From an uncultured Prevotellaceae bacterium (GTDB lineage: Bacteria > Bacteroidota > Bacteroidia > Bacteroidales > Muribaculaceae), in the NCBI GenBank assembly GCA_900318205.1, contig ONJS01000016.1, positions 1 to 64,000 of the forward strand: 64,000 bases of DNA, given 5' to 3'. Under the pieces are notes generated by a model. That model made no database searches, was not told the origin of the DNA, and was given only the letters and a program-made list of their open reading frames with translations. The translations under genes and the position numbers were made by a program. Below, piece by piece: positions 36,251 to 64,000 of this stretch (position 1 is the first letter of the stretch; each line of letters begins with the position of its first letter).

Positions 36251-36304
36251 TATCAACGCCCCCTGGCCCCCTCTAATCTTAGAGGGGGAATTGGATATAC
36301 ATTG
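36251..36304 (+). repeat. GGCCCCCTCTAATCTTAGA repeat, copy 2
   Basis: TATCAACGCCCCCTGGCCCC and CTCTAATCTTAGAGGGGG, sharing both the ATCAACGCCCCC lead and the hairpin with copy 1. It lies between two convergent genes. Confidence 0.75.
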
Positions 36305-36355
36305 AATTACAGTAAATTATTTTATTTGGTGCTCGCTAAACGAAAGAATCCTAAG

Positions 36356-37282
36356 TCACAACAAGAAAGCAGCGCCTATTACCAACAAGAGCATGAAGAT
36401 CTCGGAGAGGCGGTTGATGCGGACGGCGGTGTGCATGTCCTGGGTGGTCAATTCCCGATCGTTCTCACCGATGTAGGGTTTATCGAAGAGTTCGCCAAAG
36501 TAGTAGTGGGGACCGCCGAAGCGGCAGTTGAGTGCCCCAGCGAGGGCAGCCTCGGGGTAGCCGCTATTGGGGCTGGCATGGCGAGAGCCGTTTTTCCACA
36601 CGAATTTCAATAGAGAAAGTTTGCCCGATGCGATGACCATCAGCAGGGCGGTCAAGCGGGCGGGGATATAATTGGCCACATCATCGATGCGGGCGGCCCA
36701 ACAGCCAAAATCCTTGTAACGCTCGGTACGGTAACCAATCATCGAGTCCAAGGTATTGACCATTTTGTAGGCCAACATACCAGGAGTGCCCAGCAATGCC
36801 AACCAAAACAATGGGGCAATCACGCCGTCGCTCAGGTTCTCGGCAAGGGTCTCGAGGGCGGCGGTTCGCACTTCCTGGGCTGACAGTTGCGACGTGTCGC
36901 GCCCCACGATGCGGGCTACTTGCTGGCGTCCCTCGTCCAATGACCGGTCCAGTGCCAAGAAGACCTCGCGCACCTCACGGATGAGCGTCGTGCCTGCCAG
37001 GCAGTAGAAAATGATGATGGTATCCAGAATGAGCCACACAACCACGTTGGGTATCAGTCGCTTCAATCCCCAAACAACAAAAAACACCAACAAGATGAAA
37101 CATACCGCCATCACAGCACCTTTCGCCATGAGGTAATCGCCCTTGTTGAGGCGGTGCTCTCCCCAAGAGATCATCTTGCCGAACCACACGACGGGATGCG
37201 GCAACCATGACGGATCACCGAAAAAGAAATCCAGCAACCAGCCCAGCAACAAGGGTAATATGAGTAAAACAGCAACAGTCAT
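36356..37282 (-). CDS. cbiB: Adenosylcobinamide-phosphate synthase
   Basis: A 308-residue membrane protein of the CbiB family. LDFFFGDPSWLPHPVVWFGKMI at the N-terminus, ALETLAENLSDGVIAPLFW, YKMVNTLDSMIGYRTERYKDFG and PEAALAGALNCRFGG are the family signatures. It attaches the aminopropanol arm (or its phosphate) to adenosylcobyric acid. It lies downstream of the CobD-like aminotransferase gene, which supplies that arm, on the same strand. The 70-base gap between them holds a GAGACGCAA palindrome. Confidence 0.95.
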   Translation of the reverse strand: MTVAVLLILPLLLGWLLDFFFGDPSWLPHPVVWFGKMISWGEHRLNKGDYLMAKGAVMAVCFILLVFFVVWGLKRLIPNVVVWLILDTIIIFYCLAGTTLIREVREVFLALDRSLDEGRQQVARIVGRDTSQLSAQEVRTAALETLAENLSDGVIAPLFWLALLGTPGMLAYKMVNTLDSMIGYRTERYKDFGCWAARIDDVANYIPARLTALLMVIASGKLSLLKFVWKNGSRHASPNSGYPEAALAGALNCRFGGPHYYFGELFDKPYIGENDRELTTQDMHTAVRINRLSEIFMLLLVIGAAFLL

Positions 37283-37312
37283 TCCTTAGATTTCAGTTCT
37301 TTGTCTGACACT

Positions 37313-37334
37313 GAGACGCAAAATTTTGCGTCTC
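37313..37334. repeat. GAGACGCAA palindrome, copy 7
   Basis: Perfect palindrome in the cbiB-cobD gap. Confidence 0.85.
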
Positions 37335-37352
37335 TACAATGTGGATATCAAA

Positions 37353-38333
37353 TTAGTTTAATACATAGTTCATTATGGCTGCAACGAGGGCATCGTTTTC
37401 GGCAGGGGACTGCGTGGCGATTCGGAAATGATGCGGCGTGAGGCCCGTGAAATTGGAGGCGTCGCGGATGAGGATGCCATGCTCATGCGCCAAATATTCC
37501 TTCAACTGGGCAGCCGTCGTTTGACGGATGGTGCACAGGAAAAAATTGGTCAGCGTGTCTTGAGCCTCTATGCCTTCTACCTCGTTGAGCATGGCGCGCA
37601 GGCGCTGGGTCTCTGCCAAATAAGATGGCAAGTCCGGGATAGCGGTCACTCCTCGTTGCACAAGCCACTTGCCTGCCTCGAGCGACAACGCATTGATGGC
37701 CCAAGGACGGTATTGTTCCCGCAGGAGGCTGATTATCGCGGGAGAGGCGGTGGCATAACCCAAGCGCAGCCCTGGCACCGCATAGCTTTTGGTCATCGAG
37801 TGCAATAGGATGACATTGTCACGACTGATCATGTCGGCAGGGCGCAGCAAGGGCGCCATCGTATAGTCCTCGTAGGACTGGTCAACGATGAGCAAGCGGT
37901 GGCGCTCAGCAAGGGCCAACACGTCCTCGGCTGCCAACACATCGCCCGTGGGATTGTTGGGATTGCAGAGCCAGCACAGGGCGCCATCCTCGCTCTCCTG
38001 ATAGCCGAACACACGGCAGGCGTCCTCATATTCCCGAAACGTGGGTTGCAGGATGTGACAAGTGCCCTCATGGCGATAAGTCTGGGCTATCAAGTAGATG
38101 GCATCGACAGCCCCACTGGTCACCAACACCTCGTCGGGACTGATGCCACACTCGAGCGCTATCATCTGCTCCAGCGATGCTGCCGAGGGCTCGGGATATG
38201 TGCGAATGGCGTCCAGCCGTGTACACAGATAGGCATTCAGTGCACTCAGGTCAGTTCCGTTGTAGATGTTGGAACTGAAATTCATCTTGATATTATCGTA
38301 ACGATACAAGTCGTCGCCGTGTCCTTCAATCAT
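37353..38333 (-). CDS. cobD: Threonine-phosphate decarboxylase-like PLP enzyme
   Basis: A 326-residue class I/II aminotransferase-fold enzyme. MIEGHGDDLYRYDNIKMNFSSNI at the start is the CobD-type opening, LCNPNNPTGDVL binds cofactor phosphate, and the PLP lysine is in HSMTKSYAVPGLRLGYA. CobD decarboxylates threonine O-3-phosphate to aminopropanol phosphate for the nucleotide loop. The length is a little short of Salmonella CobD (364). Its start overlaps the end of cbiP by 8 bases, which supports tight coupling. A histidinol-phosphate aminotransferase role is the alternative, less likely in this context. Confidence 0.9.
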   Translation of the reverse strand: MIEGHGDDLYRYDNIKMNFSSNIYNGTDLSALNAYLCTRLDAIRTYPEPSAASLEQMIALECGISPDEVLVTSGAVDAIYLIAQTYRHEGTCHILQPTFREYEDACRVFGYQESEDGALCWLCNPNNPTGDVLAAEDVLALAERHRLLIVDQSYEDYTMAPLLRPADMISRDNVILLHSMTKSYAVPGLRLGYATASPAIISLLREQYRPWAINALSLEAGKWLVQRGVTAIPDLPSYLAETQRLRAMLNEVEGIEAQDTLTNFFLCTIRQTTAAQLKEYLAHEHGILIRDASNFTGLTPHHFRIATQSPAENDALVAAIMNYVLN

Positions 38334-39810
38334 GGTCAGTCAGGATATTGTAAATCTGTTCCATATCGACGTATTGGCGCACATGGGCAGCCAAGCGGTC
38401 ATATTGTTCTTCCTTGAAAGCCGCGTAGTCAAACGGGGTATTGCCCTCAGAGATTTTGTCATGGAACGGCTCCAATAGGAAATCGACAAAGGGCGTGTTG
38501 TCGAGGATGCCGTGGACGTAGGTTCCCATGCACTTGCCGTCAACGATGTAACCGTCGTCGCGACCGTCATTGAGGTGGAGCAAGGGAGATGGCTTGGCAT
38601 CGCCCATGGGATGCGTTTCGCCCTGATGGATTTCATAGCCTTGCCCGTACTGGCAGGAGACTTGGCGCGTGTGCTTATCGCCGTTCATCGTGGTGGTCGT
38701 GGGCAACAAGCCCAGACCCGGCAAACGCTCGATGTCACCCTCAACGTGGTCGGGATCAAGCACTTCCATACCCATCATCTGGTAACCACCACAGATGCCC
38801 AACACTGCCGCACCCTCGCGATGAGCCCTAACAATGGCCTGGGCGCAACCGTTGCGACGCAGTTCATACAGGTCGTGCAGGGTCGATTTGGTGCCCGGCA
38901 GGATGATGATGTCGGCTTTCTTGATATCCTCGGTATTGTTGGTATAGAACAAGTGAACCCGCGGGTCCCGTTCCAGCGCATCAAAGTCGGTGTAATTGGA
39001 CAGGTGACACAACATGATGACCGCCACATTCACCTTGTCACGCTCGGCCTGCATTGACTTCTGAGCCAACGCCACGCTGTCCTCTTCCTCGATATAAATA
39101 TCCTTGTAGTAAGGGATGACACCCAACACGGGAACGCCACAGATGTCCTCCAGCATCTTGCGTCCCTCGTCAAACAGGCGCATGTCGCCACGGAACTTAT
39201 TGATAATAATGCCCTTGATGAGGCGGCGGTCTTCGGGCGTCTGCAAGGCGATGCTGCCATAGACCGAAGCAAACACGCCACCGCGGTCGATGTCGCCCAC
39301 GAGGATGACGTCGGCATGGGCATGACGTGCCATGGGCAGGTTCACCAAATCGGTGTCACGCAGGTTGATTTCCGAGATGCTGCCCGCACCCTCCATCACA
39401 ATGGGATTGTAACGGGACGCCAAACGGTCAAAGGCGGTGCACACCTCACGGCGATAGTCAATGTCGGATGTGCCTCGGCGCCAATAGTCATAGGCGTTCT
39501 TGTTGCCGATGGGTTTGCCGTGCAGGATGACCTGTGAAGTGTGATCGGACTGTGGCTTCAGCAGCAGCGGATTCATATCGGTGTGGCAGGGGATGCCGGC
39601 AGCCTCGGCTTGGACAGCCTGGGCACGGCCGATTTCAAAACCCTCGGGCGTAGCATAGGAATTCAGCGCCATATTCTGCGCCTTGAACGGGGCTGGCGTA
39701 TAGCCGTCCTGCTTGAAAATACGACAGAAGGCAGCAGCCACGACACTCTTGCCCACGTCGCTGCCCGTACCGGCAAACATCACTGGATGCAATCGTCGAT
39801 TGTTACTCAT
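38326..39810 (-). CDS. cbiP: Cobyric acid synthase
   Basis: A 494-residue glutamine-dependent amidotransferase. The N-terminal ATPase-like domain begins MFAGTGSDVGKSVVAAAFCRIF and includes YTPAPFKAQNMALNS, and DIDRGGVFASVYGS. The C-terminal GATase domain has the nucleophile cysteine in VLGICGGYQMMG and the late histidine in YVHGILD. It amidates side chains b, d, e and g of adenosylcobyrinate a,c-diamide. Its ATG overlaps the stop of the adenosyltransferase gene (ATGA overlap). Confidence 0.96.
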   Translation of the reverse strand: MSNNRRLHPVMFAGTGSDVGKSVVAAAFCRIFKQDGYTPAPFKAQNMALNSYATPEGFEIGRAQAVQAEAAGIPCHTDMNPLLLKPQSDHTSQVILHGKPIGNKNAYDYWRRGTSDIDYRREVCTAFDRLASRYNPIVMEGAGSISEINLRDTDLVNLPMARHAHADVILVGDIDRGGVFASVYGSIALQTPEDRRLIKGIIINKFRGDMRLFDEGRKMLEDICGVPVLGVIPYYKDIYIEEEDSVALAQKSMQAERDKVNVAVIMLCHLSNYTDFDALERDPRVHLFYTNNTEDIKKADIIILPGTKSTLHDLYELRRNGCAQAIVRAHREGAAVLGICGGYQMMGMEVLDPDHVEGDIERLPGLGLLPTTTTMNGDKHTRQVSCQYGQGYEIHQGETHPMGDAKPSPLLHLNDGRDDGYIVDGKCMGTYVHGILDNTPFVDFLLEPFHDKISEGNTPFDYAAFKEEQYDRLAAHVRQYVDMEQIYNILTDHD

Positions 39811-40307
39811 TCTTTCTCGTTGGCTAAGACAAACAGATAATCAGACAGGCGGTTCATCATCACCAAGATGGTACTGTCAACCGGATGTTGGCGATGCAGG
39901 GACCACAAGCAGCGCTCCACTGTGCGAGCCTGAGTGCGCGCCAAATGGATGAAAGCGGCCAACTGTGAGCCACCGCCGGGAACGACAAAACCGCCTTGAA
40001 AATCGGCTTGGTCAATGGCTCGCTCTAATTCGCTTGTGATTTTAGCAGCATGGAGTTCACGGGGATTGACGCTGCCTTCGGGGGTGGCGATATGGCTCAT
40101 GACCGTCATCAATTCACGTTGGACGGAATGAATGATATCGCGGTTCGCATCGTCATCACCGAGCATCGAGCGCACGATGCCCAAATGGGCATTTAACTGG
40201 TCGATCTGGCCATTGGTCTCAATGCGAGGGTAATCCTTCGGGACCCTCACCCCATCGCGCAGGCTAGTCATGCCCTCGTCACCGGTCTTGGTATATATCT
40301 GTTTCAT
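39807..40307 (-). CDS. pduO: PduO-type cob(I)alamin adenosyltransferase
   Basis: A 166-residue ATP:corrinoid adenosyltransferase. IYTKTGDEGMTSL at the N-terminus binds ATP, ETNGQIDQLNAHLGIVRS and FVVPGGGSQLAAFIHLARTQARTVER are family signatures. It adds the 5'-deoxyadenosyl ligand to cob(I)alamin or an earlier intermediate. It is unrelated to the CobA/BtuR type. It sits between cbiA and cbiP in the minus-strand operon, where adenosylation is required before cobyric acid formation. Confidence 0.94.
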   Translation of the reverse strand: MKQIYTKTGDEGMTSLRDGVRVPKDYPRIETNGQIDQLNAHLGIVRSMLGDDDANRDIIHSVQRELMTVMSHIATPEGSVNPRELHAAKITSELERAIDQADFQGGFVVPGGGSQLAAFIHLARTQARTVERCLWSLHRQHPVDSTILVMMNRLSDYLFVLANEKE

Positions 40308-40370
40308 TTTCAGTTTTCAGTTGGCATTGGAACTCCCTCTAAACTCTAAACCCTAAACTCTAAACTCAAG
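40308..40370. repeat. CTCTAAACCCTAAACTC simple repeat
   Basis: TTTTCAGTTTTCAGTTGGC, then CTCTAAACTCTAAACCC and TAAACTCTAAACTC, in the gap between the second cbiA frame and pduO. The same AACCCTAAACTCTAAAC unit recurs at 55438-55460. Confidence 0.6.
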
Positions 40371-40941
40371 TTTTGAACGTGTTCAAAACTTGATAAAGAT
40401 GTGTGTAACTGGCTAATACGTTTTTATAGCGGATAACGGGCGTTGGCACGGGTTCTCCCTTGGCATTGAAAACCTGGGTGACCGATGGCGGCACCTCGCC
40501 CAGGAACTGCGTGTAGTGGAATTCATGCCCGCGGTATTCCTTGCCATCGAGGGTGAAACGGCGATAGCCCAGCGAGAGTTTTCGGTCCTGCTTACGAGCC
40601 GTGATACTGTAGGGCAGCACGCCGCACATGGGAAATTCTCCCTCGTCGGTAACGATGCTCTCGCACAGGTACATCATACCACCGCACTCGGCGACGATGT
40701 GTCCGCCACGTTCGGCATATTCCTTGATGGCTTGCCGTGTCGCCTCGGCTCGCACTAATGCGTCAAGATGCTTTTCGGGATAGCCGCCGGGCAGGTAGAG
40801 CAACGTCACGTCGTCAAGGCTGGGCACATCACGCTCGGGATCAAAGAATGACACATTCTCCAACCGATCGATATTCTCCTGATAGATAAAGGAGAAGGAC
40901 TCATCGTTGCGAGCAATCAAAGTCTTAAAAGCCGTTGCCAT
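40366..40941 (-). CDS. cbiA: CbiA, C-terminal glutamine amidotransferase half (separate frame)
   Basis: A 191-residue frame holding the end of cobyrinate a,c-diamide synthase. IARNDESFSFIYQENIDRLE is the typical mid-protein CbiA junction, LLYLPGGYPEKHL and the catalytic cysteine in VAECGGMMYLCESI follow, then YRRFTLDGKEYRGHEFHYTQF. It begins in the -1 frame relative to the upstream half and overlaps it by 25 bases. Its ATG (40941) would give MATAFKTLIARND. A single missing base in the T-run at about 40925-40928 would account for the split. Separate translation of the two halves is the alternative. Confidence 0.85.
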   Translation of the reverse strand: MATAFKTLIARNDESFSFIYQENIDRLENVSFFDPERDVPSLDDVTLLYLPGGYPEKHLDALVRAEATRQAIKEYAERGGHIVAECGGMMYLCESIVTDEGEFPMCGVLPYSITARKQDRKLSLGYRRFTLDGKEYRGHEFHYTQFLGEVPPSVTQVFNAKGEPVPTPVIRYKNVLASYTHLYQVLNTFKT

Positions 40942-41570
40942 TGTACATTATGTTCCAAAAGTTCTACCAAGAGTTTGCTTTCGGGCTTCTCGCTGAAATC
41001 TAGCCCCAAGTAGCGTGAGCCCTGTTCCAGTTCCGCTTTCTTGGGCAGATAGCCATAACACGCCACACCCAAGTCATCGCACACCTGCTGCAGCATGGCG
41101 AAATGCCTTGCCGAACCCACACGATTGAAAATCACACCACTGATGCGTACATCCTCACGGAAGTTGATGAAGCCCGAAATGAGTGCTGCCATCGAATAGG
41201 CCGCCGACTTGGCATCCACCACCAGCACGACAGGCAGGTCCAGCACACGGGCAATTTCAGCCGATGAGCCCTTGTCGCGGTCATAGCCGTCAAACAGGCC
41301 CATCATGCCCTCGACAACGCACACATCGGCATCCGCTCCATAGCGGTGAAACAATTCCCGCACATGCTCAGGCGTGGCCATAAAGGTATCCAGATTGATA
41401 CTCGGCCTGCCACACATCGCAGCATGAAACTTGGTGTCGATATAGTCAGGTCCGCACTTAAACGGCTGAACCTTATACCCCTTGCGGGTCAACAACGCCA
41501 TCAGCCCCCGGGCAATCGTTGTCTTGCCCGAGCCACTGTTAGGCGCCGCTATCAAAAATCCATGTCCCAT
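40917..41570 (-). CDS. cbiA: CbiA, N-terminal ATP-dependent synthase half
   Basis: A 217-residue frame containing the ATPase-like half of cobyrinate a,c-diamide synthase: MGHGFLIAAPNSGSGKTTIARG, VQPFKCGPDYIDTKFH, VVEGMMGLFDGYD and VLVVDAKSAAYSMAALI. The ATG at 41570 follows a -7 box by 8 bases. The frame ends soon after HNVQWQRLLRL, where intact CbiA proteins continue into the amidotransferase domain. Together the halves cover about 410 residues, near the usual 430-460. It is the first gene of the minus-strand cobalamin operon. Confidence 0.88.
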   Translation of the reverse strand: MGHGFLIAAPNSGSGKTTIARGLMALLTRKGYKVQPFKCGPDYIDTKFHAAMCGRPSINLDTFMATPEHVRELFHRYGADADVCVVEGMMGLFDGYDRDKGSSAEIARVLDLPVVLVVDAKSAAYSMAALISGFINFREDVRISGVIFNRVGSARHFAMLQQVCDDLGVACYGYLPKKAELEQGSRYLGLDFSEKPESKLLVELLEHNVQWQRLLRL

Positions 41571-41578
41571 TCCACCCA

Positions 41579-41586
41579 CAAAATTA
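41579..41586 (-). promoter_or_regulatory. -7 box of the minus-strand cobalamin operon
   Basis: Minus-strand TAATTTTG, 8 bases before the cbiA ATG. The operon cbiA-pduO-cbiP-cobD-cbiB would have almost no leader and no riboswitch. Confidence 0.6.
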
Positions 41587-41753
41587 GTGAAAAAAAACGA
41601 ATCCACCCCTCCCCCACCCAAAGAACGCCACCAAAATCCAGTAACAAAGAGAAAATCCCTCATGCTGATTTGGGAGCATGAGATGTGTACCCCAAAAAGA
41701 TTTGAGTTTAACTTTTGGGGGGATTCTCTGATTCTTTATGGCCTAAGGTAGGG

Positions 41754-54435: not shown

Positions 54436-54466
54436 TTGTCATTTTCAAGAAAAGTGATTAACTTTG
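54436..54466 (+). promoter_or_regulatory. Promoter of the M48 peptidase gene group
   Basis: TTG (54436-54438), 20-base spacer, TAACTTTG (54459-54466). The leader is about 80 bases. The same element type precedes the RCK/RyR-like gene at 57987-58017. Confidence 0.75.
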
Positions 54467-54547: not shown

Positions 54548-55429
54548 ATGAAACCGTCTGATTTTATCCATCCTGAAGATGCAGCCGCCATGCGCCAACT
54601 GGAGAGCATTCCGGGCTTTGCCGCTTTCGCCAAGAAGTTGATGTCAATTGGCACCGAGCAGCAGCTCTATGGCGTGAACATGGCTTCGAGCATTCGCCTA
54701 TCTGAGAAACAACTGCCACACATCTACAAGCATCTGCCGCCCATCTGCCAGCGTTTGGGCATCGCCGAACCCGAGTTTTATCTGCAGATGAGCCCCATCC
54801 CCAACGCATGGACCATGGGCGATACCCGCATCTATATCACGGTGACGTCGGCCCTGCTAGAGATGATGAACGACGAAGAACTCGATGCCACCCTTGCCCA
54901 CGAGTGCGGACATATCCTGTGCCGCCACAGCCTGTATCACACGCTGGTCTATTGGATACGCAACGGTCTTGTAGAGCAAGGGCTAATGCCTAAGAAAATG
55001 ATGACACCGGTAGAGATAGCGCTGATGTACTGGAACCGTAAGAGCGAGCTGTCGGCCGACCGCGCGGCGTGCATCATCACCTCGCCCGAGGCAGTAGTAA
55101 GCACGATGGCACGCTTTGCAGGAGGCCCCAAGAGCATCACGTCACAGATCAACTACCAGGAGTGGGCTAAACAGGGCGACGAGTATGAGAAGATCCAACA
55201 GTCCGGGCTCTGGAACAAGGCCCTGCAGCTACAGGCCATCGCCGAACTGAGCCACCCGTTTGCCGCCGTGCGCGTGCGCGAGGTGATGAAGTGGAGCGAG
55301 AGTGAGCAATACAGGATGATCAAGAAGGGGCTCTTACAGATTGAAGCGCCCGACGGCTTCTGCCCGCAATGCGGCAACGCCATCGAGAAAGAATGGAAAT
55401 TCTGCCTGAATTGCGGTCATCAACTCTAA
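54548..55429 (+). CDS. M48-type zinc metallopeptidase with C-terminal zinc ribbon
   Basis: A 293-residue protein. The peptidase motif H118-E-C-G-H122 follows DEELDATLA, and the third zinc ligand lies in ELSADRAACI (about E174), so the catalytic site is complete. There are few hydrophobic segments, so it is probably cytoplasmic or peripherally attached, unlike HtpX. A C-terminal zinc ribbon (CPQCG...CLNCG) follows at about 270-290. The 169-residue protein two genes on has a similar ribbon. The start is the ATG at 54548. Its place at the head of the accessory cluster suggests a processing role, which is an inference. Confidence 0.87.
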   Translation: MKPSDFIHPEDAAAMRQLESIPGFAAFAKKLMSIGTEQQLYGVNMASSIRLSEKQLPHIYKHLPPICQRLGIAEPEFYLQMSPIPNAWTMGDTRIYITVTSALLEMMNDEELDATLAHECGHILCRHSLYHTLVYWIRNGLVEQGLMPKKMMTPVEIALMYWNRKSELSADRAACIITSPEAVVSTMARFAGGPKSITSQINYQEWAKQGDEYEKIQQSGLWNKALQLQAIAELSHPFAAVRVREVMKWSESEQYRMIKKGLLQIEAPDGFCPQCGNAIEKEWKFCLNCGHQL

Positions 55430-55437
55430 TCATCTAT

Positions 55438-55460
55438 AAACCCTAAACTCTAAACTTAAG
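55438..55460. repeat. AACCCTAAACTCTAAAC simple repeat
   Basis: Short copy of the tract also seen at 40308-40370, in the 34-base gap between the peptidase gene and the next small gene. Confidence 0.5.
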
Positions 55461-55463
55461 ATT

Positions 55464-55718
55464 ATGATATTCAACCAACAAGGCTTATTAGATATCGACG
55501 GGATGATTGCGGCAGCGCCTTCATTCCAGAAGATTATGGACGATGGCATCGTAACCGACGAGGAACTGAGCCAGCAGACCGACAAGGTCATCAACCTCAT
55601 GCGTGAGGCTGAACGACGTTTCAGCGAGGAAGACCAACTATTTATCAAGCGCCTGTTTGCCGAGACCAATGTCCTCTCGGCCATCTATCAGTATTATGAA
55701 CTTCAAGAATTGAAATAG
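55464..55718 (+). CDS. Small acidic hypothetical protein
   Basis: An 84-residue, mostly helical acidic protein, not assigned to a family. It begins MIFNQQGLLDIDGMIAAAPSFQKIM and has a run EELSQQTDKVINLMREAERRFSEED. Spacing to its neighbours is 34 and 2 bases, so it belongs to the same transcription unit and may be a partner or regulator of the adjacent proteins. Confidence 0.75.
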   Translation: MIFNQQGLLDIDGMIAAAPSFQKIMDDGIVTDEELSQQTDKVINLMREAERRFSEEDQLFIKRLFAETNVLSAIYQYYELQELK

Positions 55719-55720
55719 TC

Positions 55721-56230
55721 ATGGGACGCTATAACACCAAAAGACTGCTGAAGGCCGACGTGTCGCAGATCGACGCGATTGCCGATGCCATCCGTGAAGA
55801 GTTCGAGAACGACGGTTTTGATGTCATGGTCGATGACCTGCTGAGTTGCGGCAAGGACATCAGCATCACCAAGGGCGGCATGTTCAAGGCGGTCCTGGGC
55901 ATGAGGTCAGCCCTGAAGGTCACGCTCACACCACAGAGCGACGGCGTGCTGTTTGACGCCAACGTGGGCATCTTCGGGCAACAGGTGATACCGAGCGTCA
56001 TCACACTGTTCTTCTTCTGGCCCGTGCTGATTACCCAGATCTGGGGACTCGTCAAGCAGTCGAAGATCGACGACCGCGCCCTAGCCATCGCCCAAGCCGC
56101 CGCAAGGGAGAGCACCCCCGCTCCCACCGCCTCCACCCTACTCGACCACGACGTCAAGTTCTGCACCCACTGCGGCCACAAAATGTCCCGCACCGCCAAA
56201 TTCTGCCCCGAATGCGGCACCAAAATGTAA
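55721..56230 (+). CDS. Membrane-associated protein with C-terminal zinc ribbon
   Basis: A 169-residue protein of unknown function. An N-terminal alpha/beta part (about 1-80) is followed by one hydrophobic segment (PSVITLFFFWPVLITQIWGLV, about 87-108), a linker rich in Ala and Pro, and a zinc ribbon (CTHCGHKM...CPECGTKM). Two bases separate it from the preceding gene. The similar ribbon on the M48 peptidase suggests the two proteins may work together on a membrane or nucleic-acid surface. Confidence 0.78.
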   Translation: MGRYNTKRLLKADVSQIDAIADAIREEFENDGFDVMVDDLLSCGKDISITKGGMFKAVLGMRSALKVTLTPQSDGVLFDANVGIFGQQVIPSVITLFFFWPVLITQIWGLVKQSKIDDRALAIAQAAARESTPAPTASTLLDHDVKFCTHCGHKMSRTAKFCPECGTKM

Positions 56231-56253
56231 ACAAGAAATAAGAAGATCACGAT

Positions 56254-57957
56254 ATGGAAGATTATATATACGACGTCTATATATGTTACTCACAGAAAGA
56301 CTATTTCGATGTGCAGGGGAATGTTATTCCAGGTAATGAAATAACAAGAATCTTGCAAGCACTTGATGAGGCTGGGATTTCTTATTGGATTAACAAAGAG
56401 AGCATTTTTCTTGGTGATAATTTAGAAGAAACCGCACGGAGTATAGAATCCTCACGAATCTTTCTTTTCCTTTCTACACAAAATTCAAATCATAATTCAA
56501 TTTGGGCTCCCCATGAAATTGCTTTTGCGTGCAATTTGGAAAAAATCATTATTCCTGTGCGTATAGATCCGACAAAATATTCTAAAAAAATCAAATTTTC
56601 TATCGTAGATTTAAGATATATAAAGTATTATGAGAATCCTAGTCAAGGATGTGTTGATATAGTCAGAATCATACAACAACAACTTGAAATTATTAAAAAG
56701 AAAGAAGAGGGAGAAAGGATACAAGAGGAAAAACACAAAAGACGGAAAGAATTCTATAGAGAGAACGAGAGGATACGAGAGGAAGTAAGGATACAAGAGG
56801 AAGAATACAAAAGACGGGAAGAATTCTTTAGAGAAGAACAAAAAAGAAGAATACAGAATGAACTTGAAATAGTTAAGAAAAAATTAGAACACTTGGAGGA
56901 ACGAAGAACAATTTTGGAAGAAAGGCAACGACAATTAGAAGATAAACAATATCTGCCATGTGCGCACTCTCCAGGTTCTTCATCTCCTCAAAAAGAAGAC
57001 TCGAATCGGTCTATTCATAGTGGAATCAGCGCTATTGTCGGTGGAATCGGGGCTATTGTCGGTGGAATCGGCGGTAGCGCAGGTTTTATGGCTAAAAAGG
57101 TCAAAAAACTTATCGATAAAACAAACGTCTCATTTTCAGCACTGACAAACAACATCCCCACAACAGGTAATGTCCTTAGTTCTGTTTTTGCTCCTGCTGA
57201 GGTGAGGCGGGGGTCGCACATGCTGGTGCAGGTGTATTTGCATTTGCCGGAAGAAACTAATAAAGTGCAGACTCTTGCACAAGAGGCAGACAAGAATGCC
57301 AAGCGACGAGACTATATTCCACTACAATGCCAATTGAAGAACGGTGACAAGGTAGATGTTCACATGAGCATTTATGGAGAGAATTTACTAATGTCAGACA
57401 AGAAAAGCGTTGTTTGGCAAGGTTCGTTCACTAAATGCAGTTTTGACTATTTATTGCCCAAGGATATTGATGTTGAACAGTTGAGTTGCAAGGCAATGCT
57501 AAGTGTCAATGGAAATCCTGTAGGAGAAATGATATTCATCACTAAGGTTGTAGAAAAGCCGAGGCAACTAAATCCCGAGATTTTCTCAAAGCAATATCAG
57601 AAGATCTTTATCTCCTACGCTCATCAAGACGAACCAAAAGTTGAACAAATGGCTCGTGCCTATAAGGCTCAAGGTGTTGATTACTTCTTTGACCGTCACT
57701 ACCTTCAGCCGGGAGATGTCTTCCCCTTGAAAATACAGGAGTTTATCGATAGTGCCGATTTGTTCATCTTATGCTGGTCTGCCAATGCGGCTAATAGCGA
57801 CTACGTGGAGCTGGAGCGCAAACGCGCCCTTGAACGGGCATATCCAAAGATCAAGCCCATTGAGAAAGCACCACTCCGCATTTATCCGATGAGTATCGAG
57901 CCTCGGGCAGAATTACCTGCCGATATGCGTGATACCTATAACTTTGATATCATCTGA
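56254..57957 (+). CDS. Protein with an N-terminal and a C-terminal TIR domain
   Basis: A 567-residue protein. TIR 1 (about 1-145) reads YDVYICYSQKDYFDV, then WINKES, SRIFLFLST and WAPHEIAFA, where the glutamate fits the TIR NADase position. A highly charged coiled coil follows (about 145-245), then a short Gly-rich, possibly membrane-active segment (about 270-300) and a beta-rich domain (RRGSHMLVQVYLHLPEETNK, QLKNGDKVDVHMSIYGE). TIR 2 (about 450-567) has KIFISYAHQDEPKVEQ, DYFFDRHYLQPGD and DYVELERKRA. NAD+ cleavage or TIR-TIR assembly is expected. The AT-rich first half differs from its neighbours. Confidence 0.88.
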   Translation: MEDYIYDVYICYSQKDYFDVQGNVIPGNEITRILQALDEAGISYWINKESIFLGDNLEETARSIESSRIFLFLSTQNSNHNSIWAPHEIAFACNLEKIIIPVRIDPTKYSKKIKFSIVDLRYIKYYENPSQGCVDIVRIIQQQLEIIKKKEEGERIQEEKHKRRKEFYRENERIREEVRIQEEEYKRREEFFREEQKRRIQNELEIVKKKLEHLEERRTILEERQRQLEDKQYLPCAHSPGSSSPQKEDSNRSIHSGISAIVGGIGAIVGGIGGSAGFMAKKVKKLIDKTNVSFSALTNNIPTTGNVLSSVFAPAEVRRGSHMLVQVYLHLPEETNKVQTLAQEADKNAKRRDYIPLQCQLKNGDKVDVHMSIYGENLLMSDKKSVVWQGSFTKCSFDYLLPKDIDVEQLSCKAMLSVNGNPVGEMIFITKVVEKPRQLNPEIFSKQYQKIFISYAHQDEPKVEQMARAYKAQGVDYFFDRHYLQPGDVFPLKIQEFIDSADLFILCWSANAANSDYVELERKRALERAYPKIKPIEKAPLRIYPMSIEPRAELPADMRDTYNFDII

Positions 57958-57986
57958 TAAGGTTTAGTGGATTAGGACGATGCTTA

Positions 57987-58017
57987 TTGCCAGTTAGAGA
58001 AATATTGTTTAACTTTG
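57987..58017 (+). promoter_or_regulatory. Promoter of the RCK/RyR-like gene group
   Basis: TTG (57987-57989), 20-base spacer, TAACTTTG (58010-58017), 30 bases before the ATG at 58048. It would transcribe the downstream genes through at least the C39-RyR gene. Confidence 0.75.
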
Positions 58018-58047
58018 GGGGATTGTTTTTAGAGAACGGAGAGGATT

Positions 58048-60483
58048 ATGGTAGAGGATTTTGACATAGCAGGGGAGTTGAAGCCGGTTATTGAGAAGTT
58101 GCAGTCACTGCTTGACCAACTTGGGGACAAGGGACCATTTACTTTCCTGGATTATTCTGGGGTGTTGACGATAGATGGTGTGGTGTCGGCTCTGATCTTT
58201 ATGGGGCTGATGGTGGCACTGGCGTTCTTCTTCTACCGAAATAAGAGGGCGCTGGACTTTTGTGACCGCTATTTGACCTACGCCTTTGTTGCGGTGTGGA
58301 CGCTGGGCTTTGTGGTTTATGACGTGGGTATGTACCCTGACCACAGTCTGACTGGTTGGAGGGCGTTCTGGGCGATGCTGGGTGTGGCACCGATGGCGAT
58401 TATACATGCATTTGAGATGTTTATCTTGCAGAGCGACGTGAGTGCAATCCACGACGGATGCCACGACAGTGCGTGGTTCATGTTCTTCTTCTCTATTGCT
58501 CACCTGCTGGCAGCGTTCATCAGTATGGTGTTTGTCATCAAGCACTTCGGGTTCAACATCGTGGCGAACTTCATCAGGATCATCAAGACGCACTTCTGGC
58601 TAAGCAATGTGAAGGACCTGTATGTCTTCTGGGGCATGAATAATGCGACATACTATCTGGCCAAGGATATCATTAAGAATAAGCGTGATGTCAATGCCCG
58701 CACTATCATCATCCGTGTAAACAACGACAAGGAGGACTCAAATAAACGCATCGGCTGGGACCGCCTGTTCAGCTTCCTGTCATTGACGAACAACAATCTT
58801 GACAACCTGCAAGAGCTGCAGAAGAAAGGATGCCTGACGAGCAGCACCTTCGGCTCACTGACCGACGTTCAGGCAGGCAGCGACAATGACCTGATCAGGC
58901 GCGAACTGCGATTGAGCAGCCTTGTCAAACTGATGAGCCATACAACGGGAAAAGTGCACATGTTCTTCCTCAACGACGACGAGTCATTCAACATCCAGGC
59001 CGTCGGGAACCTCAAGCGCGATGTCTCCATCAACAATTTTGCCAGCCACGGAAAGATTAAGTTCTATTGCCGAGCACGTTACAACAGCGTTCACCGCGTC
59101 ATTGAGGATGAGCCGACGCACGAGAACATCGAGGTGAGGGTCATTGACTCGGCCCACCTGAGCGTGGAGATGTTGAAATTGAAAAAAAATATCCACCTGC
59201 AGCCTGTCAACTATGTGACCGTTGAAAAGGACGCCACTGTGTCGACACCATTCAATGCACTGGTAGTGGGCTTCAGCGAAGTAGGCATGGATATGGTGCG
59301 GTTCCTGTATGAGTACAGCGCTTTTGTCAAAAAGGGCAGCACCGACACTAATGTGATACCCTCGGATTTCCATTGCGATGTGGTAGACAAGGAGATTCCT
59401 GCTCTGGCAGGCCAGTTCGTCGCCAACGCACCAGCCATCCAACCATGCCTACATCTCAAGAGGGAGACCATTGATAACCCCTGCCGCTTGTCCACTATTG
59501 AACTCTACGAGATGGACTGCCAGAGTGTAAAGTTCTATGATTATCTCAAGGATTGGCTGCCCGAGGTCAACTATATCGTCCTTGCCACCGGTGACGACGA
59601 GTTGAACATGTCTCACGCCGTGCGGTTGTTCAAGTTGGCTATTCGCTACGGAACTGACATATCACGATTGCGCATCATGGTGCGCGTGCGCCATGACGAC
59701 AACGGTCACCTCAAGAAGATTGCCGAACATTACAACCGCCTATGGGCCGCTGAGTGCATGAGCACAGACAAGGACAGGCGGCACCAGCGCGTCATTGAAG
59801 CTACCAAGCTGATTGACGGTCCTATCACACCCTTTGGCTCAACCGAGAGTATCTATACCTTTGACCACATCGTCAACGAGTCGTTGAAGGAAAGCGCCAA
59901 AAAGTTCAAAGAGAAATATGACCTCTCACTCATTGAGCTGCAGAGGGTAGCGGGATATAAAACCGATACTTACGTGAACTGGGATGACGAACAGAATCAA
60001 TACATGCAACTGACCGGCGACTGCAAGGGTTACTCTCCCACCTACAGCGGCATGATGCGGTTAAGACGTGTCCAAAGCCAAAACACTGCCAACAGCATGC
60101 ACGCCGCCACAAAGGTTGAGTTGGCAAAACGGGCCCTCAAGGAGAAGTATGACCTCATCAAGATGCATGGCTTGTCACGCAAGGTGAACGAGATTGAGTA
60201 CCAATGGCGGGATCACTGCAACGAGCCCATCGAGGACATCCAACGAGTAATGGACGTGTTGGCTCAGACCGAACACCTGCGTTGGGTAGCATCACACGAA
60301 ATCCTGGGCTATCAGGAATACCAGCCACGCGATCCAGAAGACCCAGGCAAGAAGGATGAAGCAAGGCTACAGCATGGCTACATGTGTGACTGGAACATAC
60401 TGTCCACCGAGACAAAAAGCTATGACTACAACGCTGTTGACGTGTCAATCAGCGAATACGGTTTTGAAAAACAAGAATTATAA
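58048..60483 (+). CDS. Membrane protein with two Rossmann/RCK-like regions and a RyR-like C-terminus
   Basis: An 811-residue protein. About four transmembrane segments (roughly 46-66, 76-96, 106-126, 140-165) are followed by a first Rossmann-like region (DLYVFWGMNNATYYLAKDI) and a second (FNALVVGFSEVGMDMVRFLYEY), in the style of TrkA-N/RCK domains. The last 80 residues (TEHLRWVASHEILGYQEYQ... HGYMCDWNILST...YDYNAVD) look like a divergent RyR domain. No potassium-channel pore filter was seen, so it is more likely a sensor or signalling protein than a channel. It is a strong candidate for the membrane component of the cluster. Confidence 0.78.
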   Translation: MVEDFDIAGELKPVIEKLQSLLDQLGDKGPFTFLDYSGVLTIDGVVSALIFMGLMVALAFFFYRNKRALDFCDRYLTYAFVAVWTLGFVVYDVGMYPDHSLTGWRAFWAMLGVAPMAIIHAFEMFILQSDVSAIHDGCHDSAWFMFFFSIAHLLAAFISMVFVIKHFGFNIVANFIRIIKTHFWLSNVKDLYVFWGMNNATYYLAKDIIKNKRDVNARTIIIRVNNDKEDSNKRIGWDRLFSFLSLTNNNLDNLQELQKKGCLTSSTFGSLTDVQAGSDNDLIRRELRLSSLVKLMSHTTGKVHMFFLNDDESFNIQAVGNLKRDVSINNFASHGKIKFYCRARYNSVHRVIEDEPTHENIEVRVIDSAHLSVEMLKLKKNIHLQPVNYVTVEKDATVSTPFNALVVGFSEVGMDMVRFLYEYSAFVKKGSTDTNVIPSDFHCDVVDKEIPALAGQFVANAPAIQPCLHLKRETIDNPCRLSTIELYEMDCQSVKFYDYLKDWLPEVNYIVLATGDDELNMSHAVRLFKLAIRYGTDISRLRIMVRVRHDDNGHLKKIAEHYNRLWAAECMSTDKDRRHQRVIEATKLIDGPITPFGSTESIYTFDHIVNESLKESAKKFKEKYDLSLIELQRVAGYKTDTYVNWDDEQNQYMQLTGDCKGYSPTYSGMMRLRRVQSQNTANSMHAATKVELAKRALKEKYDLIKMHGLSRKVNEIEYQWRDHCNEPIEDIQRVMDVLAQTEHLRWVASHEILGYQEYQPRDPEDPGKKDEARLQHGYMCDWNILSTETKSYDYNAVDVSISEYGFEKQEL

Positions 60484-60500
60484 CTTAATACTTTAACAAT

Positions 60501-61016
60501 ATGAGAACTCTTTTATTTTTCACAATCAGCCCATTATTGGCCTGCCTAACTGGATGTACAGCAGCGTCCTCCGGATCTAGCAATTATTGCTGGGACAGTT
60601 CGGTATGGATCACTTTGTTCATCTGTATTACTATCATTGTTATAGCTCTAATCATTACGTGTGCCGTATATTCTTGGAAGAAAGGAAGCATTCAAAACAC
60701 TGTAAATGAAAGCGCTAGCGAACAGCAACCACCCCAAGATGAAAAGCAGAAAGAGGAGGAGGCCAAGGAGAAAAAGGCCTATCGAGAAAGACTCGTGAAT
60801 TTCTTGGAAAAACAAGCTATTCAGTCTGAGAAAAAAGAAAAAACATATGGTAACGGAAAAGAAACCGAAACCAAAACAATAGAATTTAATACCAATGTAG
60901 CTACCAAATACATCAATGAATTGAAAAAATTGGCTAAAGACTTGATTCCTACAGATCCAGAAGAACCAACCAGCCCTACCGAGACACCTCAAACTGAACA
61001 AGAAGAAGGCAAATGA
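60501..61016 (+). CDS. Small membrane lipoprotein, hypothetical
   Basis: A 171-residue protein. The N-terminus reads as a lipoprotein signal (LACLTGC, C19) followed by a second strongly hydrophobic segment (about 35-60, VWITLFICITIIVIALIITC). The rest is charged: a Gln/Glu/Lys-rich region and a helical part EFNTNVATKYINELKKLAKDLI. AT content is higher than in adjacent genes. Its end overlaps the sigma factor gene by 4 bases (ATGA). The function is unknown, but translational coupling suggests a regulatory link. Confidence 0.75.
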   Translation: MRTLLFFTISPLLACLTGCTAASSGSSNYCWDSSVWITLFICITIIVIALIITCAVYSWKKGSIQNTVNESASEQQPPQDEKQKEEEAKEKKAYRERLVNFLEKQAIQSEKKEKTYGNGKETETKTIEFNTNVATKYINELKKLAKDLIPTDPEEPTSPTETPQTEQEEGK

Positions 61017-61561
61017 CTGATCGGGAGATCATAGAGGGACTTATCGCGCGGGATGAGCGGGTGACCGGGGAGTTTTTCTTCGGGCAGTGCCGGCCGTTGC
61101 TGTGCAGCATCATCGCACTGGTGTTCAACGGCAGGGTGGACTATGACGAGCTGGTGAATGAACTCTACCTCTACCTGATGGAGAACGATGCGGCACGGCT
61201 ACGCGGCTTTGAATTCCGCAGCTCAGTGTATCAGTGGCTCAAGGTGCTCGCCATCCGTTACTTCATCAAGCGACGTGACCATGTAATCGATGACGTGAGC
61301 CACGAGCCTTCTTCTCATGCCGAGGAGAGTGCCGAGGACAGCCACGCCAGCGAGGACTTGGAACGCCTGTTCGGGCTGATGCCCAACAAGCGCTATGTGA
61401 TGGTCATCAGGCGGCTCGTGCTGGAGGACGAGGACCCCGAACGGTTGGCCCGAGAGATGAACATTACTGCTGCAAACCTGTATAACATCAAACGGCGCGC
61501 GATGGCTCAGCTGGCACGCGTCGCCCTAAACGACATCCAACAATATGGCATTCAACAATAA
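61013..61561 (+). CDS. ECF-like RNA polymerase sigma-70 family factor
   Basis: A 182-residue sigma factor. Region 2 is visible in FGQCRPLLCSIIALVFNGRVDYDELVNELYLYLMEN and SVYQWLKVLAIRYFIKRRD. Region 4 reads LFGLMPNKRYVMVIRRLVLEDEDPERLAREMNITAANLYNIKRRAMAQLARV, a helix-turn-helix. The linker is short, as in ECF factors. Its promoters could be other genes of the cluster. It overlaps the next gene by 17 bases, and that gene starts with a domain resembling anti-sigma N-termini, so it probably forms a sigma/anti-sigma pair. Confidence 0.85.
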   Translation: MTDREIIEGLIARDERVTGEFFFGQCRPLLCSIIALVFNGRVDYDELVNELYLYLMENDAARLRGFEFRSSVYQWLKVLAIRYFIKRRDHVIDDVSHEPSSHAEESAEDSHASEDLERLFGLMPNKRYVMVIRRLVLEDEDPERLAREMNITAANLYNIKRRAMAQLARVALNDIQQYGIQQ

Positions 61562-62480
61562 ACATATTTCAGATGAACTGGTCGCGGCTTTTCTTGACGG
61601 CAACACGACCGCCGAAGAAACCCGACGTGTAATTGAAGCGATGAGGACCGACGCGTCCCTGCGAGAGGTCATCAAAGTGGCACTGCAGGTGCATCGCGAC
61701 CCAGCGGCTGTCACCCTGCCAATGATGCAGATGGCTGCCGAGAGCGGCGAGAACCTGTGCGGGGTGATGTGCGAGGCCTACATCCTCAACCGGCGCGGCA
61801 TCTCATATCACGAGGACGAGCTCATCGCAACAGCACGCGAGAAACGGTGGCTCAAACCCGAAGGCTCCCCGCTGCACGCCATGGGACAGCTGCTGGCGCA
61901 CTACGGGCTGATGATCACCCACAGCTATGACGCCACCATTGCTGATATCTCTGCCGCACTTGAGCTCGACAATGACGTCATCGTGGCTGTGGATAACGGC
62001 AAACTCTATCCTGATACCATCGATAACGAGGATACTGCCAACCATGCCATCGTAGTCACCGCCATTGACTGCGAGAAGCAGACGGTCACCATCTATGACC
62101 CCGAGAAAAGTGCCATCCAGACGGTTGGTCTCGACCACTTCAATAATGCCTGGCAGACGTCGCTCAACTACATGGTGCGCGTGCTACAAGAGGCCGGCGA
62201 ATATGACCCGCGCCCCGTCAACCTGGATGACATTGAGATTACCGACGACCTGATGGAGCTGCGCGAAGCCATCGCCGAGAACGCCCACGACGTATGGGCC
62301 GTCGCCCGCATCAAGGACGGCTGGACCTTCGGCCCCGAACGCAACGACACCCTCAAGCACCACCCCGACCTGATCCCCTACTCCGCCCTGCCCGACGGAG
62401 AAAAAGAGTACGACCGCCTCATGGCCCTCAACACCATCAAACTGGTAAAAAAACTAGGCTTCGACCTCGTGAAAAGATAA
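61545..62480 (+). CDS. Anti-sigma-like, C39-type peptidase and RyR domain protein
   Basis: A 311-residue protein with three parts. Residues 8 to about 50 (ISDELVAAFLDGNTTAEETRRVIEA...SLREVI) resemble the N-terminus of anti-sigma factors that clamp ECF sigma factors. Residues about 60-215 are a papain-like C39 domain: C72 in GENLCGVMCEAYILNRRGI, H167 in NHAIVVTAID and D185 in TIYDPEKSA. Residues about 236-311 form a RyR domain: HDVWAVARIKDGWTFGPERN, then HHPDLIPYSALPDGEKEYDR. RyR domains are proposed to sense nucleotide-derived ligands. A ligand-controlled release of the sigma factor is a hypothesis. Confidence 0.82.
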   Translation: MAFNNKHISDELVAAFLDGNTTAEETRRVIEAMRTDASLREVIKVALQVHRDPAAVTLPMMQMAAESGENLCGVMCEAYILNRRGISYHEDELIATAREKRWLKPEGSPLHAMGQLLAHYGLMITHSYDATIADISAALELDNDVIVAVDNGKLYPDTIDNEDTANHAIVVTAIDCEKQTVTIYDPEKSAIQTVGLDHFNNAWQTSLNYMVRVLQEAGEYDPRPVNLDDIEITDDLMELREAIAENAHDVWAVARIKDGWTFGPERNDTLKHHPDLIPYSALPDGEKEYDRLMALNTIKLVKKLGFDLVKR

Positions 62481-62525
62481 GAAACAGAGGAATTAAGGCT
62501 CTATACTTTAATACAATATAGCAAT

Positions 62526-63839
62526 ATGGATAACGAAAGGATTTGGGGAATACTATTTGAAGCGATTGAGCAGAACAGAGTTGTTCCAATTATTGGAGAT
62601 GAATTCTTCTATGCTGAAGTTGGCGGTGAACTAGTCAACTACAAGAAGCATATACTTAATGAGCTCATCTCCAAATTTAATCCGCCTAAAGATATTATTC
62701 CTGATTTCAATATGATTTCGGGACTCATTGAGGCCCAAAATGTTTTATTGCGAGCAACAGGAAATTTCTCAAACGCGACAAGCATTTACTATGAAATCGG
62801 TGATATCGTGCGAAATACCCCCATCGTATGTGACCAATGCTTGACAGATTTCATACAGTCATTCAAATTCCCATTAATCCTTTCTACGTCTTATCTGCCT
62901 GGTATTGAGCAACTATTAGCAAATCAAGGCTTTGAGGTTAAAGCATATGACAAATCACCACGCATTGACATTCCATATGCTGACATGGTGGCGCCACCCA
63001 CGCTTTATTACCTTTTCGGTAAATGCGGCAAAGCAAACAAGACCTATATGGCTACCGAAGATGATTTGCTTGAATATATCCACTATTGGCATAATATTGA
63101 GACACGCCCAATGCGTCTCAGCGAGTATCTAAGTGACAAATTCTTGCTCATGTTAGGGTGTGACTATCCCAACTGGTTGTTCCGATTCTTCTGGCATTCC
63201 GTCAAAAACTTCAACTTGTTGTCGGGCAGCACCGAGGTTAAAGGAGTTGTCGCCGGTTCTATACTTGACACCGACAATGAGCTATCACGTTTCCTTGCCC
63301 GAATTCAGACCCATACCTATGCAAACGGGCGTGACTTCATGAAAGAACTGAGAGAAAAAAAGAAGACTATCACCAATTTCGCATCACCGAAGATTCATGA
63401 AATCAATCGTTATGATGATCGTCCTTGCGACATTTTCATATCTTACTCTCATAGAGATGATCAAGCCGCTAAAGCGATTTCCGACATCATCAAAGCCCAG
63501 GGAGCGAGCGTGTGGTTTGATAGTTCCAACTTGATTGGTTCTGATCACTATGATGACATCATACGCAACAAGATTACCGAGTGCCAGCGATTTGTTCCCA
63601 TCCTCTCAACGGCTACCGAAACTGAAAAAAGAGGATATTTCCGGAAAGAATGGAGTTTAGCTATAGAGGAGTCTACATTTCGTTTAGGCTCACCATACAT
63701 TGCTCCGATAGCCATCAATGAGATAGACTACAATTCTAAACTCATTCCTAAAGAGTTTAAGGACTCTCACATTTTGTCTTATAACAGTCAAGACTTTGAG
63801 AACGAAATCAAAAGATTAATACGCTCATTCAGACAATAA
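62526..63839 (+). CDS. SIR2-like and TIR fusion protein
   Basis: A 437-residue protein. The N-terminal region (about 10-265) is a SIR2-like NAD-binding fold: RVVPIIGDEFF, LILSTSYLPGIEQLL, YLFGKCGKANKTYMATEDDLLEYI and FLLMLGCDYPNWLFRFFW. The C-terminal TIR domain (about 300-437) has CDIFISYSHRDDQAAK, SVWFDSSNLIGSD, FVPILST and a glutamate at E375 in YFRKEWSLAIEES that fits the NADase position. SIR2 and TIR are both NAD-consuming folds in antiphage proteins, so combining them in one chain is notable. The gene is 45 bases after the C39-RyR gene and is AT-richer than it. Confidence 0.87.
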   Translation: MDNERIWGILFEAIEQNRVVPIIGDEFFYAEVGGELVNYKKHILNELISKFNPPKDIIPDFNMISGLIEAQNVLLRATGNFSNATSIYYEIGDIVRNTPIVCDQCLTDFIQSFKFPLILSTSYLPGIEQLLANQGFEVKAYDKSPRIDIPYADMVAPPTLYYLFGKCGKANKTYMATEDDLLEYIHYWHNIETRPMRLSEYLSDKFLLMLGCDYPNWLFRFFWHSVKNFNLLSGSTEVKGVVAGSILDTDNELSRFLARIQTHTYANGRDFMKELREKKKTITNFASPKIHEINRYDDRPCDIFISYSHRDDQAAKAISDIIKAQGASVWFDSSNLIGSDHYDDIIRNKITECQRFVPILSTATETEKRGYFRKEWSLAIEESTFRLGSPYIAPIAINEIDYNSKLIPKEFKDSHILSYNSQDFENEIKRLIRSFRQ

Positions 63840-63843
63840 TCCC

Positions 63844-64000
63844 ATGGAAAGAGACTTAAAAGAGAACCCCTGGAAAGGTTTAGCAAGTTACACCTATCAA
63901 GATGCCGACCATTTCTACGGCCGCGACAAGGAGTTAGATGAAATCGCATCTATTATTAAGCAGAATGCGTTCACAACCCTTTACGGCGTTTCTGGAGCGG
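63844..64000 (+). CDS. STAND-type NTPase, N-terminal fragment (runs off the window)
   Basis: Only 52 codons are visible, beginning MERDLKENPWKGLASYTYQDADHFYGRDKELDEI and ending just as a P-loop appears (LYGVSGA). The NPWKGL...FYGRDKE opening is typical of nSTAND NTPase proteins that accompany TIR and SIR2 effectors. The distance to the SIR2-TIR stop is 4 bases, which supports coexpression. The rest of the protein and any downstream genes lie beyond the window. Confidence 0.75.
   Translation, partial: MERDLKENPWKGLASYTYQDADHFYGRDKELDEIASIIKQNAFTTLYGVSGA

Follow-up and report, generated by a model that had tools for sequence, protein, structure and literature searches.

In Thoeris, a TIR enzyme is paired with a separate receptor of an ADP-ribose (ADPR) signal that drives an effector (for the signal chemistry, PMC13232231). 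According to this 2026 preprint, phage proteins with a ryanodine-receptor (RyR) domain bind or cleave the cyclic ADPR (cADPR) molecule 2'/3'cADPR through the residues H75, W78, H100 and D117, of which H75 and D117 form the catalytic dyad of the phage protein RyDEP; other than the DyoEdafos RyDEP, the phage homologues tested there showed no cleavage despite their high conservation, and six of eight bound. Here we describe a gene cluster at the end of the window, by which we mean the whole 64,000-nucleotide stretch analysed (contig ONJS01000016.1 of an uncultured Prevotellaceae bacterium; G000:C13:1-64000 in our labels, on a contig that ends at 67877). We lean towards the view that this cluster represents one version of a TIR-RyR signalling system that Bacteroidales assemble from modules: TIR proteins would make a signal, RyR domains would receive it, and the outputs would be provided by a sigma factor and a membrane protein of RCK type. 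TIR-based nucleotide signalling is of a known kind; the receptor and the outputs proposed here are undescribed in the literature that we searched.

Gene order, recurrence, folds and conserved residues were all computed directly. Nine complete open reading frames (ORFs; A to I) and a tenth left open by the window edge (J) lie on the plus strand from position 54548 onwards. The intergenic gaps from A to J are 34, 2, 23, 90, 17, −4, −17, 45 and 4 bases, so that eight of the nine measure 45 bases or less, and the picture given in an earlier note on this DNA, of nine complete genes and a partial one running closely spaced or overlapping in one direction, is confirmed with gaps of −17 to 90. The genes are as follows (counts of loci refer to the 88 distinct loci defined below).

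54548..55429, plus strand: A, M48 metallopeptidase (HExxH) with a C-terminal zinc ribbon (Peptidase_M48 3.6e-17, Zn_Ribbon_1 1.4e-7)
55464..55718, plus strand: B, 84-residue protein with no known family matched, accompanying A and C (7/88 loci)
55721..56230, plus strand: C, zinc-ribbon protein with one hydrophobic stretch seen by eye (Zn_Ribbon_1 2e-8; 6/88 loci)
56254..57957, plus strand: D, TIR domain, charged coiled-coil-like stretch, middle region, second TIR domain (TIR_2 1.1e-29, two stretches)
58048..60483, plus strand: E, N-terminal membrane helices, tandem RCK gating-ring domains and a C-terminal RyR domain (about residues 729-805)
60501..61016, plus strand: F, single-pass membrane protein with a charged tail (5/88 loci)
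61013..61561, plus strand: G, sigma-70 family (ECF-like) sigma factor (TIGR02937 3.3e-10)
61545..62480, plus strand: H, anti-sigma-like N-terminus (about 1-50), C39 papain-like peptidase (60-218) and RyR domain (215-311)
62526..63839, plus strand: I, SIR2-like and TIR fusion (TIR_2 1.3e-14; SIR2_2 2.2e-5, 25.0 bits against a cut-off of 24.5)
63844..64000, plus strand: J, start of an nSTAND1 NTPase, complete on the contig at 63844-67743 (1299 residues)

We then asked how far this arrangement recurs. Relatives of E, the protein that marks the system, were sought in 297 sampled genomes of the family, where they occurred in 39 genomes and in 12 of 30 genera, and then in GTDB species genomes, from which the best 80 of 157 relatives were kept, making 77 loci. 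Together with the window and 39 further stretches these gave 117 loci, and 88 distinct ones were left once 23 duplicates and 6 loci lacking any E of 600 residues or more had been removed. Neighbours were counted within 8 kb of E on the same strand; TIR and RyR domains were called with iterated profiles seeded from those of the window, on longest-ORF gene calls that can hide small genes. A TIR gene accompanied E at 49 of the 88 loci, another RyR gene at 46, both at 30 and neither at 23. At the level of whole genomes, a separate RyR gene was present in 31 of the 39 with E as against 23 of the 258 without it (Fisher 3e-20, genome relatedness ignored; the count excludes G049, which has E's own RyR domain only, and G073, under the cut-off). 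TIR_2 matches were likewise concentrated near E, 22 of 89 lying within 10 kb of it, in 17 genomes, where about 0.7 would be expected at random if 22.4 kb in each genome is set against an assumed genome size of 2.9 Mb; this tally, which also ignores relatedness, was made by hand in 31 of the 39 E genomes and counts two double-match genes twice. The closest relative, L074, has an E that is 83% identical and the order A-TIR-E-F-G-H-TIR-TIR-RyR. Across the order, the E profile found matches in 30 of 344 genomes, many at the RyR end only; among 15 stretches from that search several from other families show cluster modules, and others have E by itself or accompanied by RyR only. Four arrangements from other families of the order are given below.

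L177: A-C-x-E-RyR
L183: C-TIR-E-RyR
L186: sigma-C39-A-B-C-E
L187: SIR2TIR-STAND-x-E-TIR-RyR

Across the phylum, 25 of 395 genomes matched, the window's own included, with partial matches only elsewhere; by eye, these are RCK proteins with an RyR-like tail (L152, L154) and a protein joining AAA and RyR parts (L156). The earlier note would have counted a lack of co-occurrence elsewhere as refuting its reading; the genes were found together across many genera, and also beyond the family within the order. What did not stand is the exact composition as one unit, the sigma gene with C39-RyR being found at 11 of the 88 loci, the SIR2-TIR and STAND pair at 7 and the M48 gene at 9. The idea of a fixed ten-gene system was dropped, as the modules vary independently across the 88 loci, and the cluster shows just one of the ways in which exchangeable modules are combined around RCK-RyR, TIR and RyR.

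The RyR domains link these modules to the phage proteins. When RyDEP (DyoEdafos gp78) was aligned with seven RyR domains of the cluster systems, six columns were invariant, and four of them were H75, W78, H100 and D117, as numbered in PMC13232231. These four positions are kept in 89, 88, 88 and 88 of the 89 distinct E proteins, respectively (median column conservation 0.42), in 42, 42, 39 and 42 of 42 stand-alone RyR proteins, and in 14, 14, 10 and 14 of 14 H proteins; E and H of the window have all four. The RyR domain of H matches PF02026 at 6.6e-29 (100.5 bits, cut-off 27.4) and is 51-54% identical to the Bacteroides thetaiotaomicron RyR protein (3nrt, 6uag). The E of the window has no Pfam match of its own at E 0.1; PF02026 matches the C-terminus over its cut-off in four relatives, and the E family profile matches RyR structures at 1.4e-12, both the B. 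thetaiotaomicron protein and Repeat12 of the animal ryanodine receptor, whose pore and solenoid type is not in the cluster proteins. The proposal of the earlier note, that RyR domains may sense NAD-derived signals, fits the chemistry given in PMC13232231 and the conservation of the four active-site residues. Whereas RyDEP is there a phage counter-defence enzyme or sponge, the domains that share its four residues here are encoded by the host beside TIR genes and are fused to RCK and C39 parts.

The same residues bear on a rival explanation, which we hold to be unlikely: the RyR domains would be signal terminators like RyDEP that hydrolyse or soak up cADPR and shield the host from its own TIR proteins, E and H being localised or regulated off-switches. 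Retention of the H75/D117 dyad in E (89 and 88 of 89), in the stand-alone proteins (42/42) and in H (14/14) speaks for it. However, apart from the DyoEdafos RyDEP the conserved phage homologues tested in PMC13232231 are non-cleaving, with six of eight binding, so that the dyad does not prove catalysis. Moreover, a domain joined to an RCK ring in one protein and to C39 and an anti-sigma-like end in another suits sensing over disposal.

RyR domains were also seen in other settings. In L156, which comes from a genome farther away within the phylum, an RyR-like domain is fused to what by eye resembles an AAA-type ATPase; a PPDK_N protein adjoins RyR genes at L188:11695-14697; and a human-faecal record labelled Bacteriophage (L176, MT837259.1) encodes at 11070-11342 an RyR protein that shares 66% identity with the stand-alone RyR of the host.

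On the side of signal production, one glutamate column is invariant in the TIR alignment (85/85 aligned rows, 73/73 distinct rows), with both domains of D and that of I included, and it is the sole fully invariant column among those listed. We take this glutamate to be the catalytic residue, so D and I carry the catalytic-type glutamate expected of TIR NADases, which is their predicted activity. What we take to be the sirtuin catalytic motifs appear degenerate in I by eye. The protein J matches nSTAND1 at 6.6e-32 (112 bits, cut-off 27.1) and also has hydrophobic stretches and a weak WG-repeat match; extension of the STAND gene past 64000, suggested by the earlier note, completed it as a 1299-residue nSTAND1 protein. 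The TIR enzyme and the proposed separate receptor of an ADPR signal are points of likeness to Thoeris (ThsB TIR with ThsA); the cluster differs in its proposed receptor, which is RyR, and in its proposed outputs, for which it has a sigma factor and a membrane protein of RCK type. Matches of D and I to ThsB models cover short stretches only (E 1e-8 and weaker), and against the ThsB_TIR Pfam family D stays below the cut-off and I has no match. No match to a ThsA model or to the SLOG or Macro families was found among A-I or J, a test outside which ThsA variants with other receptors fall. Identity with Thoeris was rejected, no ThsA-type receptor having been found. The cluster as a whole matches no model of PADLOC (2023): no model was found for A, B, C, E, G and H (E 0.01), nor for J and the stand-alone RyR (E 0.001), and D, F and I have weak partial matches only. 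Likewise, no description of a host TIR-RyR system was found in the titles and abstract openings searched, a set that did not extend to the text of a 2015 comparative study of conflict networks centred on nucleotides (10.1093/nar/gkv1267), which may discuss RyR, and the term RyR is absent from the main text of the 2020 conflict-system paper PMC7159879.

At some loci another type of NAD-cleaving enzyme is found. The DUF4062 family is reported in PMC13174449 to consist of TIR-like NADases of phage defence; in Swarozyc, the system described there, NAD is depleted by the NADase itself, and the main text of that paper mentions neither RyR nor ryanodine. DUF4062-like genes lie near RyR or RCK-RyR genes in five distinct loci of our set, as though substituting for TIR or joining it. 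In L170 the protein (8770-13401) is Pfam-confirmed and adjoins RCK-RyR and RyR genes, and the four others came from local search (L119, L127, L191 and L140/L056), directly 3' of E in L127 and on the opposite strand in L119 and L140. The recurring theme would thus be an NAD-cleaving enzyme together with RyR.

In its architecture, protein E resembles the gate of an ion channel. Its predicted model has a membrane-embedded N-terminus with four long helices and two RCK Rossmann domains in tandem, and by fold comparison the ring resembles TrkA, KtrA and CASTOR; the closest rings include GsuK with ADP and NAD and TrkA with ATP-gamma-S. Tandem-RCK gating rings are also those of KtrA, TrkA, GsuK, CASTOR/DMI1 and Slo1, from which E differs in its membrane part, in lacking the TVGYG filter and in its added RyR domain. 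TVGYG, which we take to be the selectivity filter of K+ channels, occurs in none of 89 distinct E proteins; three of them have GYG alone within their first 200 residues. Since the full motif is missing, E was not accepted as a K+ channel and is at most a possible channel.

The second output would be transcriptional. Regulated proteolysis of anti-sigma factors is known from RseA and from RsiW/PrsW. The cluster likewise pairs a sigma gene with an anti-sigma-like N-terminus, whereas H differs in having its own C39 protease and a ligand-binding-type domain, and no membrane helix was seen in its sequence. G scores 39.8 bits against TIGR02937 (curated cut-off 42.9) over profile positions 6-163 of 165. 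H has a papain-like fold with a Cys-His pair, both catalytic residues of C39 (Cys and His) being invariant; an NCBIfam scan of its family gave nothing informative. In the first 117 loci, duplicates included, C39-RyR genes adjoin a sigma gene in 18 of 18 cases, and so do all the C39 genes of the further stretches (L163, L164, L172, L173, L174, L184 and L186, the last without a called RyR part). This adjacency speaks for the predicted sigma-factor branch that the earlier note had put forward. The N-terminus of H (ISDELLAAFLDGN) has weak matches to two anti-sigma domains, zf-HC2 in 5 of 13 sequences (best 0.0055) and RseA_N in 4 of 13 (best 0.0017). The adjoining F was called a small lipoprotein in the earlier note; it has a lipobox-like LTGC, and a lipobox was not seen in the two relatives whose starts were read, so that "single-pass membrane protein" is the safer term. 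PrsW-like intramembrane proteases adjoin E at L054:4397-5104, L055, L048, L068, L073 and other loci. PrsW is an anti-sigma protease; such proteins lie near E at 9 of the 88 loci, two of them Pfam-confirmed, and also at loci without a sigma gene.

From these elements we infer a ligand and its producer, cleavage by C39 with sigma release, a membrane output and an anti-phage purpose, in the following scenario. The nSTAND1 sensor J would probably switch on the SIR2-TIR protein I. The TIR proteins D and I would cleave NAD and release an ADPR-type signal, most simply a cyclic ADPR isomer, and the RyR domains would bind it in the pocket with which the phage RyDEP captures or cleaves 2'/3'cADPR. Two proposed RyR receptors, E and H, are present in the cluster and a stand-alone RyR protein is probably a third. 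E would convert the signal into an effect at the membrane by means of its RCK gating ring, which resembles the rings found in K+ channels and transporters. In H, a ligand on RyR would release or activate C39, the anti-sigma-like N-terminus would be cut or loosened, and the sigma factor G would be freed. The stand-alone RyR protein, probably encoded at the far end of the operon on contig C47, may serve to buffer the signal or to share it. The system would likely protect the cell from phage or some other invader. In a bolder form, which we consider possible but rather doubtful, there would be a bacterial cyclic-ADP-ribose/ryanodine-receptor axis, in which cADPR made by TIR opens the RCK-ring membrane protein through RyR while, within one and the same cell, an RyR-gated protease frees the sigma factor, so that a single immune nucleotide elicits responses both at the membrane and in transcription; on this view, the RyR sponges and glycosidases of phages would be host receptors that phages have captured. 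If the TIR-RyR scenario is true, receptors of TIR-made nucleotide signals extend beyond the SLOG and Macro domains of Thoeris, a domain with tested roles in phage counter-defence and animal calcium channels (in the literature covered here) gains a host-side partner, and a TIR-signal pathway is linked to transcription through a ligand-controlled protease. The old question of what the Repeat12 domain of ryanodine receptors did before animals also becomes testable with small soluble bacterial proteins.

Several results weigh against this scenario. At 23 of the 88 loci E has neither TIR nor RyR for a neighbour; 12 of these have at least 8 kb of flank on both sides and 11 are shorter, among them L086, which has at least one partner on the opposite strand. 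Orphan E genes in three Bacteroides species (L120, L121, L131) share their neighbours, which are foreign to the system, and no nearby TIR or RyR gene. Taken with the partnerless loci, these orphans suggest that E can act alone or with distant partners. The missing TVGYG filter counts against a K+ channel output, and the sigma branch is narrow, its gene pair being confined to the 11 loci given above. Moreover, the anti-sigma matches at the N-terminus of H all fall below curated cut-offs (16.4 bits against 22.2 for zf-HC2 in the window), and its comparison with the PDB ranks a calmodulin-like structure first (E 0.32) and RseA/MucA next (E 0.43-0.44), all of them insignificant. Of the 14 H proteins, 4 have lost the H100 residue. 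Human RyR3 Repeat12 structures contain ATP, ADP or AMP-PCP, and the ligand may therefore be a plain adenine nucleotide. Finally, E has partners with signal-peptide-like starts, namely TPR proteins at 16 of the 88 loci, LRR-caspase proteins at 7 and CHAT proteins at 7, which could mean a role in envelope stress; TPR partners were counted only with a hydrophobic start, because the TPR profile also catches the TPR parts of other proteins, including J of the window.

These points lend themselves to a second alternative, to which we give the same low likelihood as to the terminator model: RyR and RCK would sense adenine nucleotides or NAD status in a regulator of energy, redox or envelope stress, and the TIR proteins would be NADase effectors rather than makers of a signal. 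The ADP-, NAD- and ATP-gamma-S-bound rings resembling that of E, the adenine nucleotides in human RyR3, and the TPR (16/88) and PrsW-like (9/88) neighbours would all be at home there. However, the patchy occurrence (39 of 297 family genomes), the swapped TIR types and the STAND, caspase and CHAT partners resemble conflict systems, and RyR genes track TIR and, at a few loci, DUF4062 genes. The last alternative is that separate systems have piled up here, namely an abortive-infection pair of SIR2-TIR and nSTAND1, a pair of TIR genes and an RCK/sigma operon unrelated to them. It would account for the separable modules (SIR2-TIR with STAND 7/88, sigma with H 11/88, M48 9/88) and for a SIR2-TIR and STAND pair without E in L171 (though about 1.4 kb from an RyR gene, G118:C14), yet it is very unlikely, as the E-RyR-TIR association is far above chance, the genes overlap or abut in one direction and the 83% identical relative L074 retains the series given above. 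Taken as a whole, the interpretation given in the earlier note is partly supported.

As an observation on the partners of E, TPR, LRR-caspase and CHAT proteins adjoin it at L041:6636-8900, L040:15447-16952, L036:16206-18404, L177 and L179 and form a possible envelope-side partner set. No plasmid copy of E turned up in the plasmid search, which gave no match.

The second RyR gene of the genome is a stand-alone gene for a protein of 117 residues at the right end of contig C47. In the relative G193 an RyR gene comes after the cluster, and beyond it lie the same genes as beyond the RyR gene of C47, named by eye as dipeptidase-like and electron-transfer-flavoprotein-like. A TGTCCACTAAAAA-type repeat is present at the ends of both C13 (67877) and C47 (27090), the two copies being oppositely oriented. 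C47 therefore probably holds the continuation of the operon, separated from C13 by an insertion element; a direct overlap of the two contig ends was looked for and none was found.

Upstream of gene A lies one candidate signal.

54459..54466, plus strand: candidate promoter box TAACTTTG, about 80 bases 5' of gene A, which fits TAnnTTTG (function is not implied by the match)

We take TAnnTTTG to be the −7 consensus of the primary sigma factor in Bacteroidetes. CTTTGC is invariant 5' of gene A in four aligned loci (the window, L074, L076 and L077). A simple terminator scan showed no plus-strand terminator-like site between the cluster genes, and a sigma-70 and terminator scan of the cluster region gave counts no higher than in shuffles. 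The product of A, whose family occurs at 9 of the 88 distinct E loci, showed no obvious signal peptide. Farther upstream, at 29556-41663 of the window, ORFs recognised by eye resemble a late-biosynthesis cobalamin (B12) cluster.

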